Assembly: GCA_019155205.2 (NCBI GenBank)
Contig: JAHNZQ020000277.1
Span: 1,208,272-1,272,271, forward strand
Length of the DNA stretch: 64,000 nt
Reading direction: 5' to 3'
From: Gracilaria vermiculophylla
Lineage: Eukaryota > Rhodophyta > Florideophyceae > Gracilariales > Gracilariaceae
Shown: one piece after another, positions 11,605 through 59,042 of the stretch
Layout of the letters: each line of letters opens with the position of its first letter
Position numbering within the stretch: position 1 is the first letter of the stretch
Made by a program: the position numbers and the translations under genes
The notes under the pieces: model-generated
The model's input: the letters and a program-made list of their open reading frames with translations, nothing else
The model's database searches: none
Told to the model about the DNA's origin: nothing

Positions 11605-13258
11605 TTACATATCACCACCACCTTGTACAAAGTTTTCGATTCCAGAAATCACCTTCACCGAAGCTATCCTATCTCCAACTTCCAGCTGCGGAAGGAACTC
11701 TTTCCCGTCACCCACGTACCCAAAAGTGGACAGGCTACCGGTCAATACGCTCCCCCCGAAAGATCTCGCCTGATACGACGCGGGATCAAGCGTGAAAAAG
11801 TAGAACTGCGAAGAGGCGTCGTTCGCGTCTTCCACGCTGTGCACCATGGCCATGGCGCCGAACGCCGAAACCGGTAGAACAGGCTGTAAATCACCTATCC
11901 CAAGCTCGTCCAACGTCGCGCCGTACGCGGGCGACGACTCGCCGTCCACCAGAATCTCCAGCGGGATCTGCCTCCGCCTCCCCGACCGCGGGTCGCTGAA
12001 GCCGTCGACGCCGTCGTCTTCGCGTTCGCCCATCTGCACGAAGAAGTCCTTCTGCTTGGCCAGGATTCGCGTGTTGTCGTAGTAGCCGCGCCGCGCAATG
12101 TCCACAAAGTTGCCGCACGTCAGCGGCGCCGAAAACCCGTCCAGCACGGCGGTCAGCGTCAGGTCCTTTCCGAGCGGCGCCAGCGTTTTGGGGTCCGTCC
12201 AAGTCGCGTCCCCGCCCTTTCTCACGTGCAGCTGCACCACCGCTCTGCCGGCAAGGCGCGGGAAGCTGCGCGCGCCCGCAAGTCGTTCAAAGCGCAAGTT
12301 AACGTCCGATTTGCCCCGGAGCGCGAGGAGCCGGCGCGAGAGTGGCTGTCTTGCAACCGACTGCGCACGTACCTGTTGTAGCGACGTGGAATCTTGAACG
12401 GCAGGCCGATGCCTTCCACGGCAATTTGCTCAATGTTTGCAACATGTTGCAGCGCTTGCTGCCTGATTTCCTCCACCACGGCAGCTGGGCGCACGCGAAA
12501 GGAACGCGGTGCGAAAACGCGCGCGCGTTAGGAAACCACGAGCGCACGGGCAACACGCAGAGGAGAGAGGGAAACGTACCGTCAAAGTTTGTTTTCTTCG
12601 ACATGGCATTTCTGCGCTCAAATACGTCCGACAGAGTTTGCTGAGCTCTGGAAAGCTCCGGGGGAAACAAGTTGCTGTTTACAGGCGCGGACGAGATTTG
12701 CAGTTCTTCCTCAATCTCGAGAAGACAATTCTCTAATGCTGAAAGAGACTGGGCCGCTACTTGCCGTTTGCTGGCGGGCACGTCCAGCAACACATCCACC
12801 TTGGCTGTGCTCATTATTTCTCTGAGCTTTTGAACGTCTCTTCTACCGGATATACGTCCGGCTGCTCCACGGGAGCGCAGATCGATCCCCAAGCGCTCTA
12901 GTTGTTCCTGGATTCGACGAATTGGAATAGGCTCCGTTGAGTAGCGTTCACTGGGTATGGGAAGGGAATAGCGAAGGATGGCGTCCGAATCTGTTATGAG
13001 ATACCGACGGAAGATGGTATTTCCCGAGAGCAGACCTTTTGCTTGTGCACTGGATGTGGGCAACAGCAGCAATGCCGCAGCTGCCGCGGCTGTAGTGGCT
13101 GCCGCAATTGCTGTGCGGCACGGGGGAGACTGTGAAGAACAGCATGGCGCGATTGACGATGGGGTTATGACACGCGGCCGCTTAACCAAAGGTGTCGCGG
13201 ACCGATAAAGAAAGGCCACAGCTAACGTCGATGACCAGGGCGCTTTCTGTGTTGTCAT
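11605..13258 (-). CDS. CYP38: Thylakoid-lumen cyclophilin-type protein, CYP38/TLP40-like
   Basis: There are three exons on the minus strand: 13258-12580, 12484-12373 and 12265-11605. The GT-AG introns are 95 and 107 bp and phases match exactly, giving 483 residues. The N-terminus looks like a bipartite lumenal targeting signal: a Ser/Arg-rich region, then an Ala/Leu core ending in SSAQA at residues 69-73, a good lumenal cleavage site. Next comes a helical region with leucine-rich segments (about 95-250), then SFPRLAGRAVVQLHV and a divergent cyclophilin barrel (about 300-480). CYP38/TLP40 assists assembly and repair of photosystem II; plant members have little or no isomerase activity. The barrel lacks a clean set of cyclophilin active-site residues, in keeping with that family. 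Read without splicing, the frame breaks into two partial proteins. Confidence 0.85.
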
Positions 13259-13653
13259 GTAGATGAACTTGTACAGCTAGACGGTTCGTGCAGAGGTTCT
13301 GAACGGTGCGAATAAAGAGATAAATTCGAGAAAAAGCTTCTGGTCCTGGATGAATCGCGGGTATTGGATGGCTTCGCTTGGGCGTGACTTGGGAGGAGTG
13401 AACCTTTTAGTAGGGTAGCAGGATCACGTCTGTCATTGATTTAGAAGTTGCATCTTTATCGCTGCAAGAATCTCGGAAGGAGATTGGGTGGTACCTTGCA
13501 TACGATCAGCAAACAGCACTATGCAAAAATGAGCGGTTGCAGATCTTGCCACGCACAGAGTCGCAAATTGTGATCTCTCTAAACCACTCTGGAAAATACA
13601 ATAAAATCTAAATACACATTTTGAACAGCTCACTTTCAGAAGAGAGCGACGTC
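13259..13653. other. Intergenic leader upstream of the permuted tRNA
   Basis: Spacer between the CYP38 start and the tRNA locus. It holds the 5' leader of the tRNA transcript, including GAAG at 13639-13642, which could pair with CTTC in the anticodon loop. No open frame of note. Confidence 0.4.
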
Positions 13654-13729
13654 AGCTGAGGTTCCGGGTTCGATTCCCGGCGGGCGTACGTAAGCGCCTG
13701 TAGTCAAATGGTATGATATCAGCCTTCCA
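13654..13729 (+). tRNA. Circularly permuted tRNA-Gly (anticodon UCC)
   Basis: The tRNA 3' half precedes its 5' half. The 3' half, 13654-13688, holds A38, the anticodon-stem strand GCTGA (13655-13659), a four-base variable loop, T stem CCGGG/CCCGG with loop TTCGATT (13664-13680), acceptor strand CGGGCGT (13681-13687) and discriminator A (13688). Five bases (CGTAA) follow. The 5' half, 13694-13729, holds acceptor GCGCCTG, D arm GTCA/TGAT with loop AATGGTA, A26, anticodon stem TCAGC (13719-13723) and loop CTTCCAA with anticodon TCC (13726-13728). Rejoined at 37/38, the acceptor pairs at all seven positions (two G-U) and the anticodon stem at all five. Sequence and arm sizes match plant tRNA-Gly(UCC). 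No conventional partner half lies upstream or downstream. In Cyanidioschyzon such genes mature through circularised precursors. Uncertainty is whether it is expressed. Confidence 0.78.
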
Positions 13730-13753
13730 AGAAGGCTATCTCCTCGCCTATCA

Positions 13754-13757
13754 TTTT
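13754..13757 (+). terminator. Possible Pol III T-run terminator
   Basis: Four consecutive T residues lie 24 bases after the tRNA 5' half, the minimum for a Pol III stop. It is weak but correctly placed. Confidence 0.35.
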
Positions 13758-13887
13758 GTTTAGCTCTCGGGTATGGCGAGGGCCAAGATTTGATCCTCTT
13801 TCGGGGAAACATTCTTCGACACTTTTAGTTCACCTGCATTGAGGACATCATCTGACAAACTTGGGTTACTTACTGTTGGTCTCCAAC

Positions 13888-15210
13888 ATGCAAACTAATG
13901 AAGCCAAAGACTCATCATCCTGGAGTCCTGGTGCGTCATTGTGGGGCGGCATAGATCATCTACTTCGAAACGCTGGACCTCTTTCACCCGATCTGAGAGT
14001 CGAAAGCGCCGATTCCACGGAGAAATTTTTACGTCAACATTGCAAAGTACTTATCATCGGTGCAGGTGGTCTAGGCTGCGAGCTCTTGAAAGACGTAGCC
14101 CTTTCAGGATTTCGTCAAATCCACGTCATCGACCTCGATACCATCGATGTCACCAACCTCAACAGACAGTTCCTATTTCGTTCGACCGATGTGGGAAAGT
14201 CCAAAGCCCAGGTTGCTGCTCAGTTCGTCAATTCACGAGTGCCAGGATGTTGCGTCGTTGCTCACCATGCGAATATTATGGATTTTGACAGTGACTTTTA
14301 CCAGCAATTCAACATTGTGATTGCGGGACTTGATTCTGTCGAAGCACGTCGATGGTTGAATGCTATGTTAGTGAGTTTGGTTCAGTATAACGCTGATGGG
14401 TCAATCAATCAATCTTCCGTGGTGCCATTGATTGATGGGGGTACTGAGGGGTTTCAAGGTCAGGCGCGCGTCATATATCCGCGATTTTCATCGTGCTTCG
14501 AATGCACACTCAACTTGTTCCCCCCGCAGCAGAACTACCCTTTCTGCACGATTGCAAACACGCCGAGGCTGCCAGAACACTGTATTGAGTACGCCAATAT
14601 AATTCTATGGGATAAACTCAAGCCCTTCGGAGAGGTAAAATTGGACATGGATAACATAGAGCACACAAAGTGGTTGTACGATACCGCAAAAGCAAGAGCA
14701 GAGCAATTTGGAATCCGAGGCGTTACCTTGCGACTGACTCAAGGCGTTGCAAAGAACATCATTCCAGCAGTAGCCTCAACGAATGCAATCGTAGCCGCCG
14801 CCTGCGCCAATGAAGCTCTCAAGATGATATCTTATATTGCAACAAATATGGACAACTACATGATGTACAACGGAACGATTGGGGTATACACATATACGTA
14901 CAAGAGCGAAAAGAGACCAGACTGCCCCGTGTGTGGAGTTCCGCAGCCAAAAACCATGAACGTGTCGGGTACCGATTCTCTTGGTGAATTCCTAGCGCAA
15001 ATAGCAGCGGACCCTGACATTCGCTCCAAAAAGCCGTTCTTGCGCTCAAACACGGGCAGAACCTTGTACGCGTCCTCTGCGCCTCTCCGAGAAGCAACAA
15101 AAGTAAATCTGGAAAAGAAGATGAACGAACTGATAACTTCCGGCACGGAGGTAACATTGGCAGACAAAGATTTGCCATTCATTCGAACTCTTGTCATTAA
15201 CTACAAATAG
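13888..15210 (+). CDS. UBA3: NEDD8-activating enzyme E1 catalytic subunit (UBA3)
   Basis: The single exon encodes 440 residues from the ATG at 13888. UBA3 with its partner APP-BP1/NAE1 adenylates NEDD8, forms a thioester with it and passes it to Ubc12 for cullin modification. The nucleotide-binding motif GAGGLG is at residues 58-63, followed by the conserved VIDLDTIDVTNLNRQFLFR stretch. CFECTLNLFPPQ and the later CPVCG supply the zinc-binding cysteines. The PRLPEHCIEYA segment contains the catalytic cysteine in its family-typical setting. The C-terminal ubiquitin-fold domain is present but short. Length agrees with human UBA3 (463). The gene begins about 160 bp after the tRNA and converges on AP-3 delta, with 145 bp between the stop codons. 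Confidence 0.95.
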   Translation: MQTNEAKDSSSWSPGASLWGGIDHLLRNAGPLSPDLRVESADSTEKFLRQHCKVLIIGAGGLGCELLKDVALSGFRQIHVIDLDTIDVTNLNRQFLFRSTDVGKSKAQVAAQFVNSRVPGCCVVAHHANIMDFDSDFYQQFNIVIAGLDSVEARRWLNAMLVSLVQYNADGSINQSSVVPLIDGGTEGFQGQARVIYPRFSSCFECTLNLFPPQQNYPFCTIANTPRLPEHCIEYANIILWDKLKPFGEVKLDMDNIEHTKWLYDTAKARAEQFGIRGVTLRLTQGVAKNIIPAVASTNAIVAAACANEALKMISYIATNMDNYMMYNGTIGVYTYTYKSEKRPDCPVCGVPQPKTMNVSGTDSLGEFLAQIAADPDIRSKKPFLRSNTGRTLYASSAPLREATKVNLEKKMNELITSGTEVTLADKDLPFIRTLVINYK

Positions 15211-57422: not shown

Positions 57423-59042
57423 ATGCTTTCATACTATGCCCTGCAAGCGACAAGGCGAATGCCGTTCAGACAAAGCGGTTTCTTCAGTTTTCAAAGCAAA
57501 CAAACAAAAATTGGTTTATCCTCTAACATCAGAACCAAGTGCACCTACTCGAGCGAACCGCTAGCACCCTCAGGGACTGGGGGATTCGAGCTCACATTTC
57601 TGGGCACCAGTTCCCAAGGCGGCGCCAGACGTTATCCATCGTCACTGGCGGTGCGGTTGCGCGGAGCGTCGAACTCAGAAGTATGGGTGTTTGACGCTGG
57701 AGAAGGCGCCATGGCTCAGCTTCAACGTTCCAATATGCGAATAGGGCTGGTGCGCAATATTTTCGTATCCCATTTGCACGGCGATCACTTGTACGGTCTT
57801 CCGGGCTTGGTCATGTCAGTTCTCGGACGGCGTGAGATATTTAACAGGCAAGGTGAGACCACCCTCAATGTTTATGGGCCGCAGGGTATCAGAGGATTTC
57901 TGCGCATGGCTCTCGGAGTTGCGAGTTTTCGCATCCCAGGCAAATCTGCCTTGAGAATCAATGAGTTGATCTGGCCCGACGAGTTTGGTCCTCGATCATT
58001 GCAGAATAAGCATAGAAACGGGAGCGCGTATTGGAAACACTCTGTGAAGCGACTCCCTTTCGAGACGATTGGTAGGGACATCGTTCCAGAACAAGATGCC
58101 AATGGGCAATACACGTATCAGGTATCCGGCGGGGAAGATACCGCACAAGACATTGCACTTTCCAAGCGGAGATGGCTGGGTACAGGACCCGCAACCGTCG
58201 TGGCGGCTCCAGTGTTGCACACCATTCCAACATTTGCATATGGCGTTACAGAGAACGTCGTAAGTCTCCGTTTCGACAAGAGAAAACTTCTTGAATTGGG
58301 AATTCCCACTGATGGTCGGGAAGAAGTTCGGGTCTTATTTGAACAGTGGTTGATGGGTGAAAGAGGAGTCTGGCAAGGGAAAGAAATTCCCATTGATAAC
58401 GTTTTGCAGAATGGGAGGAAGCCAAGAACATTGTGTATTGTAGGCGACACATATGACGCTACCGCGGCCGCCCATATTGCCAAAGATGCCGACGTATTGG
58501 TGCATGAGGCGACCAATATGGCTGCTGGAACCCATACTGCGAAAAGCCGCGGACACTCGTCGACTGTGGGCGCTAGCGCATTTGCCAGAAGAGTTGGCGC
58601 AAAACGTCTTATCCTAAATCATGCAAGTGTTTCTTACAGCGAACGTAAAATCCGCGCAATGGAAATGGAGGCAAGAGGAATGTTTGGAGCCAATAAAGCC
58701 TTCGTAGCGAGAGATCTGAGTGTTTTCAGCATACCGACTTGTGAAGAAGATGATGAAGAGTTTGCATTTAGGAGGTTTGCTGGTTTTGCTGATTCGTTAG
58801 AATATAAGTCTACTCAAGAAACGCCTTTCAACAGCGAATTTTTGGTTGACGATGGAGAACTGGATTCTCCTCAGGATGAGGATTTTGATTCATTGAAGTC
58901 AGAAGAGTATGCTGATGAACAAGATGAGGAAGAGAGGTCAATTCTTTTAGATTCTCATGAGCAATCAGCGATTGCAGAGGAAATAGAAATACATAGTAGC
59001 ATATATCGCGAACAAGAAAGGCAATCCGTGTTGACCATTTAA
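57423..59042 (+). CDS. ELAC1: Short-form RNase Z (tRNA 3' endonuclease), organelle-targeted
   Basis: The single exon encodes 539 residues. RNase Z cuts the 3' trailer from tRNA precursors. The N-terminal 45 residues are Arg/Ser/Gln-rich with few acids, as in a mitochondrial or plastid targeting peptide. The ribonuclease core carries FLGTSSQGGARRYPSSLAVR, FDAGEGAMAQLQ, the metal-binding HLHGDH at residues 117-122 followed by LYGLPGL, GDTYDA, HEATNMAAG and LILNHASVSYS. In the HEAT motif the usual phenylalanine is replaced by Asn. The C-terminal 100 residues form an acidic extension with many Asp/Glu and Ser, not part of the fold. Longer than bacterial RNase Z (about 310) because of both ends, yet only one beta-lactamase domain, so it is the short type. 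Confidence 0.92.
   Translation: MLSYYALQATRRMPFRQSGFFSFQSKQTKIGLSSNIRTKCTYSSEPLAPSGTGGFELTFLGTSSQGGARRYPSSLAVRLRGASNSEVWVFDAGEGAMAQLQRSNMRIGLVRNIFVSHLHGDHLYGLPGLVMSVLGRREIFNRQGETTLNVYGPQGIRGFLRMALGVASFRIPGKSALRINELIWPDEFGPRSLQNKHRNGSAYWKHSVKRLPFETIGRDIVPEQDANGQYTYQVSGGEDTAQDIALSKRRWLGTGPATVVAAPVLHTIPTFAYGVTENVVSLRFDKRKLLELGIPTDGREEVRVLFEQWLMGERGVWQGKEIPIDNVLQNGRKPRTLCIVGDTYDATAAAHIAKDADVLVHEATNMAAGTHTAKSRGHSSTVGASAFARRVGAKRLILNHASVSYSERKIRAMEMEARGMFGANKAFVARDLSVFSIPTCEEDDEEFAFRRFAGFADSLEYKSTQETPFNSEFLVDDGELDSPQDEDFDSLKSEEYADEQDEEERSILLDSHEQSAIAEEIEIHSSIYREQERQSVLTI

Follow-up and report, generated by a model that had tools for sequence, protein, structure and literature searches.

The window analysed here, a 64-kb stretch of contig C12 (positions 1208272-1272271) in an assembly (G000) of 44.84 Mb and 27 contigs, carries the two halves of a tRNA-Gly(UCC) in reversed order, and the question raised by this locus is whether they constitute a permuted tRNA gene and, if so, whether that gene could supply the organism with a working tRNA.

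Anatomy of the locus and its detection against chance

The first-pass annotation had placed the 3' half of the tRNA five bases upstream of its own 5' half, and its coordinates proved right to the base (Table 1). When joined with the 5' half first, the two parts give a tRNA-Gly of 71 nt with anticodon UCC and an ARAGORN score of 120.6 (an overlapping alternative solution for the same joined sequence scores 102.1). Pairing is complete in all four arms, as had been proposed: 7/7 pairs in the acceptor stem, 4/4 in the D stem, 5/5 in the anticodon stem and 5/5 in the T stem, three of these pairs being G-U (1-72 and 6-67 in the acceptor stem, and one in the D stem). The B box and the UCC anticodon were likewise found where they had been described, and rejoining at the canonical 37/38 junction is borne out by the sequence and by ARAGORN; because an A is present at both 13730 (after A37) and 13654 (before G39), the join may lie at 37/38 or 38/39, with an identical product. 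The locus has the anatomy of a type II permuted gene, in that both halves lie on one strand, the 3' half first and a few bases of spacer between them (as at a second locus described below), and that rejoining them yields an entire cloverleaf whose anticodon is usable (ARAGORN 120.6; model R2, 55.3 bits). The observation of a permuted tRNA-Gly(UCC) gene at 13654-13729 is thereby confirmed.

Table 1. Features of the locus, its neighbourhood and the second copy (window positions unless a contig is named)
Feature	Position	Strand	Description	Basis
AT-rich upstream stretch	13594-13633	+	-60 to -21 from 3' half; 0.75 AT; possible TATA-like Pol III promoter	
Leader end	13651-13653	+	GTC; C32 is a possible pairing partner of G13651, as in the anticodon-intron pair at eukaryotic splice sites	
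3' half of tRNA-Gly(UCC), A38-A73	13654-13688	+	35 nt; AGCTGAGG...GGGCGTA	sequence reading, ARAGORN, model R2
B box	13667-13677	+	GGTTCGATTCC; inside 3' half	
Spacer	13689-13693	+	CGTAA; joins both acceptor-stem ends; without CCA, without T-run	
5' half of tRNA-Gly(UCC), G1-A37	13694-13729	+	36 nt; GCGCCTG...CTTCCA	sequence reading, ARAGORN, model R2
A box	13701-13711	+	TAGTCAAATGG; inside 5' half	
Anticodon	13726-13728	+	TCC; inside 5' half	
Trailer	13730-13753	+	starts GAAGGCT, able to form 7-bp hairpin with AGCCTTC of 5' half	
Possible Pol III terminator	13754-13757	+	TTTT	
NEDD8-activating enzyme E1 catalytic subunit	13891-15210	+	neighbouring protein gene; 91% identity to Agarophyton chilense protein, 89% to Gracilaria domingensis	
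tRNase Z-like ORF	57423-59042		539 aa	
Second copy, 3' half	C14: 4336706-4336740			
Second copy, 5' half	C14: from 4336748			

Chance matching of so many pairs had been judged very unlikely, and this judgement was upheld by a model blind to the gene. Model R2, a covariance model prepared from 15 ordinary nuclear and organellar tRNAs of the assembly (the candidate being excluded from the training set) and permuted in silico at 37/38, matches the window just once when E-values of up to 10 are admitted, at 13654-13729, with 55.3 bits and an E-value of ~6e-18 (E-values are rough); in an unfiltered run over bases 1-40000 the runner-up reached 8.9 bits (E 1.1). Neither ARAGORN (bacterial setting) nor Rfam at gathering score reports a conventional tRNA in the window. 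No direct or inverted repeats of at least 10 bases (9-base seeds) occur at 13200-14200, and neither an exact 24-mer of the gene in a genome-contig collection nor a 20-mer in viral contigs gave a match.

Three other readings of the locus were rejected: a conventional intron-containing tRNA gene, because its halves would stand in the opposite order and no significant outer halves flank the window copy; a tRNA-derived repeat or pseudogene, by the presence of just two copies in the DNA search, with identical mature parts; and split tRNA genes, with halves at separate loci joined in trans, by the distance of 5 and 7 nt between the halves at the two loci.

A second copy and the search for a conventional nuclear gene

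When the joined tRNA was used as DNA query against the assembly, four pieces were found in two places, namely the window locus and a locus on contig C14. The mature bases of the two copies are identical at 71/71 positions, both halves matching letter for letter, whereas the C14 spacer is CTCATGA (7 nt vs 5 nt at C12) and the flanks are unrelated (22/60 positions equal upstream and 14/60 downstream, with local alignment scores that shuffled sequence matches, p 0.93 and 0.11). The leaders of the two loci end in the hexamers GACGTC and GATGTC. Model R2 scores the C14 copy at 54.7 bits, and model R1, a permuted-tRNA model built with the candidate gene included, gives each copy 72.7 bits. Among the fetched loci (35, 40, 32, 20 and 20 sources, mostly picked by their B boxes) the best R1 score beyond the two copies is 33.6 bits (L044); the assembly may contain further permuted tRNAs outside the loci scanned, as these were mostly B-box-picked. 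With long introns allowed, ARAGORN reports a 745-nt 'tRNA-Glu' at the C14 locus, which was taken as spurious, as it borrows the T-arm of the permuted gene. The C14 copy lies ~1.4 kb upstream of a 921-aa ORF (L025 7146-9911), which we take to resemble Argonaute.

A copy with another spacer and unrelated flanks argues strongly against both assembly error and a relic. Assembly error had been raised in the first-pass annotation as an objection to permutation, and an assembly or scaffolding artefact that placed the 3' half before the 5' half is now barely credible: the assembly does seem to hold mis-scaffolded or foreign organelle DNA (C17 3.02-3.23 Mb, C2), but two loci that differ in spacer and flanks have the halves in the same order, and no N lies within about 500 bases on either side of either copy. 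A conventional half close to the gene was the other structural objection raised. Lost outer halves were therefore sought within 300 bp of both copies in four shuffle tests (p uncorrected), and none was found around the window copy (p 0.90 upstream, 0.45 downstream); for C14 the values are 0.45 upstream and 0.05 downstream, and the 3'-half-like match behind the last value, equalled by 5% of 300 shuffles, can be no more than a faint sign of a remnant.

The assembly was also searched for an ordinary tRNA-Gly(UCC) gene, whose presence elsewhere had been named as a sign that the locus is a relic. With tRNA-Gly(GCC) as DNA query four full-length conventional genes are recovered, so that close copies of tRNA-Gly(UCC) would be seen as well; these four genes (L086, L095, L101, L103) have identical mature parts and unrelated upstream 60-mers (11-19/60 equal), a pattern shared with the permuted pair, and the base after A73 is C in all four as in both permuted spacers. 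Since the first step of the DNA search is strict and would miss diverged copies, B-box motifs were listed in addition. In these lists contigs C2, C6, C16, C19 and C20 and C17 3.02-3.23 Mb are set apart as organelle-type, an assignment suggested by dense tRNA clusters and a GC content of 0.21-0.32 in the stretches read. These regions hold organelle-type sequence of more than one kind, with a plastid-type stretch sitting inside a 5.16-Mb contig, and may represent foreign algae, mis-scaffolding or nuclear insertions.

The exact B box of the gene, GGTTCGATTCC, occurs at 32 sites (10 organelle-type, 22 nuclear); two of the nuclear sites are the permuted genes, and the other 20 (L061, L064-L082) yield no tRNA by ARAGORN or Rfam. 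All 23 nuclear sites of GGTTCGAATCC were read (65 sites in total, 42 of them organelle-type), giving four tRNA-Ser and no glycine tRNA. For VGGGTTCRANYCCC, with 90 sites divided into 36 organelle-type and 54 nuclear, two of the latter are again the permuted genes, and the remaining 52, all read, include as glycine tRNAs the four GCC genes only. No glycine tRNA was found at the 24 nuclear DTGGGTTCRANYCCCA sites read, out of 30 nuclear sites and 53 overall. The 90 sites of GGTTCGACTCC (187 less 32 and 65) were read in part, and a conventional gene could therefore remain among them. The position on an ordinary gene elsewhere is thus divided: organelle-type tRNA-Gly(UCC) genes are present on C2, C20 and the C17 segment (44-49/71 positions equal to the permuted gene), and no nuclear one was found, with the GGTTCGACTCC sites partly covered. 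To judge from these searches, a conventional nuclear tRNA-Gly(UCC) gene in the assembly is unlikely.

The common pattern GGTTCGAHTCC has 187 sites, vs 26 for the reversed control. This excess was considered as a sign of many tRNA genes and rejected, as 11 of the 15 nuclear loci read first hold the dispersed-repeat motif GGGCCCAG, two more look like repeat copies by eye, and Rfam finds no tRNA in the fifteen. Two types of dispersed repeat bear a T-arm-like motif adjoining TTATGGGCCCAG, some copies being partly masked (first type: L033, L034, L036, L037, L054-L062, L144-L150, L155-L157, L176 and L177; second type: L106, L115 and L158-L175 except L162), an arrangement that presumably recalls a copia-type primer-binding site.

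The loci read also include several nuclear tRNA genes with D-loop insertions (L134 compared with L114; L110, L111; L153; L085, L092, L102). L134, which Rfam does not report at gathering score, is the tRNA-Glu(UUC) of L114 plus 13 bases after GGTT, with one T-arm base differing, and similar insertions are seen in Lys(UUU), Leu(UAA) and Asp tRNA genes; they recall the disrupted tRNA genes of Cyanidioschyzon merolae. A tRNA-Asp gene lies within a match to eukaryotic small-subunit rRNA (L102 1-411; Rfam, 70.8 bits). At L117 (~500-620) a T-arm and 3' end are followed by TTTTT and preceded by A-box-like and D-arm-like stretches without a matching 5' acceptor strand; neither ARAGORN, Rfam nor R1 makes a call there, and the stretch may be a disrupted tRNA or a remnant.

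The identity of the mature parts bears directly on whether the two loci are non-functional remnants, either of a tandem tRNA pair that lost its outer halves or of a reverse-transcribed RNA reinserted into the genome, the tRNA itself being supplied by a conventional gene that escaped the search. Tandem duplication is the favoured origin model of permuted genes in the part of a 2014 review that treats their origin (PMC3978253), and the weak match on the downstream side of the C14 copy (within 300 bp; p 0.05 in one of four tests) and the incomplete coverage of GGTTCGACTCC sites are compatible with remnants. However, decay of a relic should affect its mature part no less than its surroundings, and agreement at every mature base while spacers and flanks are unrelated therefore counts against this explanation, as does the failure to find a conventional nuclear gene; we regard it as improbable.

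Transcription signals, precursor folding and processing

For comparison of flanking signals, 37 of the 38 nuclear non-permuted tRNA genes read were used, the uncertain L087 being left out. TTTT occurs within 40 nt downstream in 36/37 of them, and the permuted loci have T4 at +24 (C12) and T5 at +8 (C14), whereas TTTT would arise in the window background with a probability of 0.118 (29 nt) and 0.044 (12 nt). The AT content at about -60 to -20 is 0.75 (C12) and 0.68 (C14), against a window 40-mer background of 0.486; upstream of the 37 nuclear genes it has a mean of 0.62 and a range of 0.25-0.85. AT-richness upstream is thus not specific as a mark of permuted genes, and some ordinary genes are without it. 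Both loci have the signals of type II genes, with an AT-rich upstream region, a T-run downstream and none in the spacer; the permuted genes of C. merolae are described in the review, in the part concerned, with TATA-like sequence upstream, a T-stretch downstream, and A and B boxes in reversed order (PMC3978253).

Candidate genes for the processing enzymes are present. One protein with a PF01974 catalytic domain is encoded on C4, its nearest solved relatives being Sen2 chains, and the Pfam PF01974 model detects no other endonuclease subunit in the assembly. An RtcB gene lies on C8; the last ~30 positions of the profile match a separate, weaker piece that is perhaps a second exon. The PF09511 profile (T4-type ligase) has no match, but no control matched either. 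The tRNase Z-like ORF of the window has 2cbn as its best solved match (E 7e-36) and resembles ribonuclease Z, the class to which cleavage on the spacer's 3' side is ascribed.

The bulge-helix-bulge splice-site motif at the junction appears weak: the C32-G(-3) pair and 3/4 central-helix pairs are possible in both copies, and ~10% of window positions also fit. Folding of a long precursor is predicted to be unfavourable. In these predictions, which treat secondary structure only, without tertiary contacts or proteins, the minimum-energy precursor with a leader of 20, 30 or 45 nt has no anticodon stem at either locus, the cloverleaf costing 5.7-6.7 kcal/mol (C12) and 2.0-2.4 kcal/mol (C14) with pair probabilities of at most 0.01. 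When the leader is shortened to 6 or 12 nt, C12 has the full cloverleaf as its predicted minimum-energy fold (probability ~0.7 and ~0.3, respectively), and for C14 the cloverleaf lies 0.9 and 4.2 kcal/mol above the minimum.

On the grounds of its anatomy, second copy, flanking signals and candidate enzyme genes, the locus is very probably a functional nuclear type II (37/38) permuted tRNA-Gly(UCC) gene whose product is processed via circular RNA; its transcription, processing, charging and role as sole source are our inference. RNA polymerase III, directed by the upstream AT-rich element, would produce one linear RNA ending at the T-run, in the order leader, 3' half, spacer, 5' half, trailer. 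The halves would fold into a cloverleaf with the acceptor stem closed by the 5-nt spacer; tRNA splicing endonuclease would take off leader and trailer at the anticodon loop, and RtcB would ligate A37 to A38, giving a 76-nt circle. Excision of the spacer by RNase P and tRNase Z, followed by addition of CCA, would then complete the tRNA.

It is probable that the nuclear genome encodes its GGA-reading tRNA at the C12 and C14 loci alone; GGA accounts for 158/563 glycine codons in 13 window ORFs (predicted starts), and this tRNA perhaps reads GGG also. It might instead be supposed that transcription of the loci gives a stable RNA, circular or fragmentary, that serves a function outside translation. 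Circles are a known intermediate of permuted genes, according to what the review says of processing (PMC3978253), and nothing specific to these two loci points that way; against it, every stem is intact, as is the UCC anticodon, and GGA codons are common, so that we consider such a role most improbable.

Relation to known permuted genes and significance

The permuted tRNA-Gly(UCC) is a known kind of gene in an unexpected host. The protein identities of the neighbouring NEDD8-activating enzyme gene (Table 1) support a red alga of the Gracilariaceae as that host, probably Gracilaria vermiculophylla. The earlier statement that such genes are described for Cyanidioschyzon, green algae and nucleomorphs agrees with the 2014 review, in whose tally 34 permuted tRNA genes are spread over one archaeon and six unicellular algae, and which reports circles and charged tRNAs for those of C. 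merolae (PMC3978253); later cases appear in extracts on the Amorphochlora nucleomorph (PMC4494063) and Auxenochlorella (PMC12633428). Among the titles and abstracts listed from the open-licence literature, none has a florideophyte or multicellular case, in keeping with the earlier inference on florideophytes.

As the review's relevant parts describe it, the type II tRNA-Gly(CCC) of C. merolae shares with the present gene a red algal host, glycine and the 37/38 junction; there, too, one mature tRNA is encoded by two separate genes, with a 7-bp spacer (here 5 and 7 nt) (PMC3978253). Unlike the present gene it has anticodon CCC and an intron at 55/56, and its host is unicellular with a 16.5-Mb genome, whereas the host here is probably a multicellular florideophyte; the likeness is one of described features (PMC3978253). 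The permuted genes of prasinophyte green algae and the Bigelowiella natans nucleomorph resemble ours in that nearly all junctions are at 37/38, most are intronless and spacers are short (5 bp in B. natans, as at C12), but they belong to a unicellular green lineage and, among the tRNAs named in the part of the review concerned (Ser, Leu, Cys, Met, Arg, Asn), there is no glycine (PMC3978253). Thermofilum pendens also has the 3' half before the 5' half with a short spacer; in that archaeon, as the same source outlines it, the junction is at 59/60 and there are further introns and a gene-encoded CCA, in contrast to 37/38 and no CCA here (PMC3978253).

A more far-reaching proposal is that a multicellular seaweed relies in every cell on a circular intermediate for its only GGA-reading tRNA, and that the permuted gene was inherited from an ancestor shared by Cyanidiophyceae and Florideophyceae, its reversed order having persisted from close to the root of the red algae through the divergence of anticodon and copies; we think this unlikely. 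The fact that two ordinary scans (ARAGORN, Rfam) missed the permuted gene means that tRNA inventories of red seaweeds may be incomplete. If a permuted pair is indeed maintained, apparently without conventional nuclear backup, in a 45-Mb assembly that probably comes from a florideophyte seaweed, then multicellularity and a larger, repeat-rich genome would be no bar to the upkeep of such genes, and the pair invites the question of an ancestral origin for the permuted glycine tRNA in red algae.
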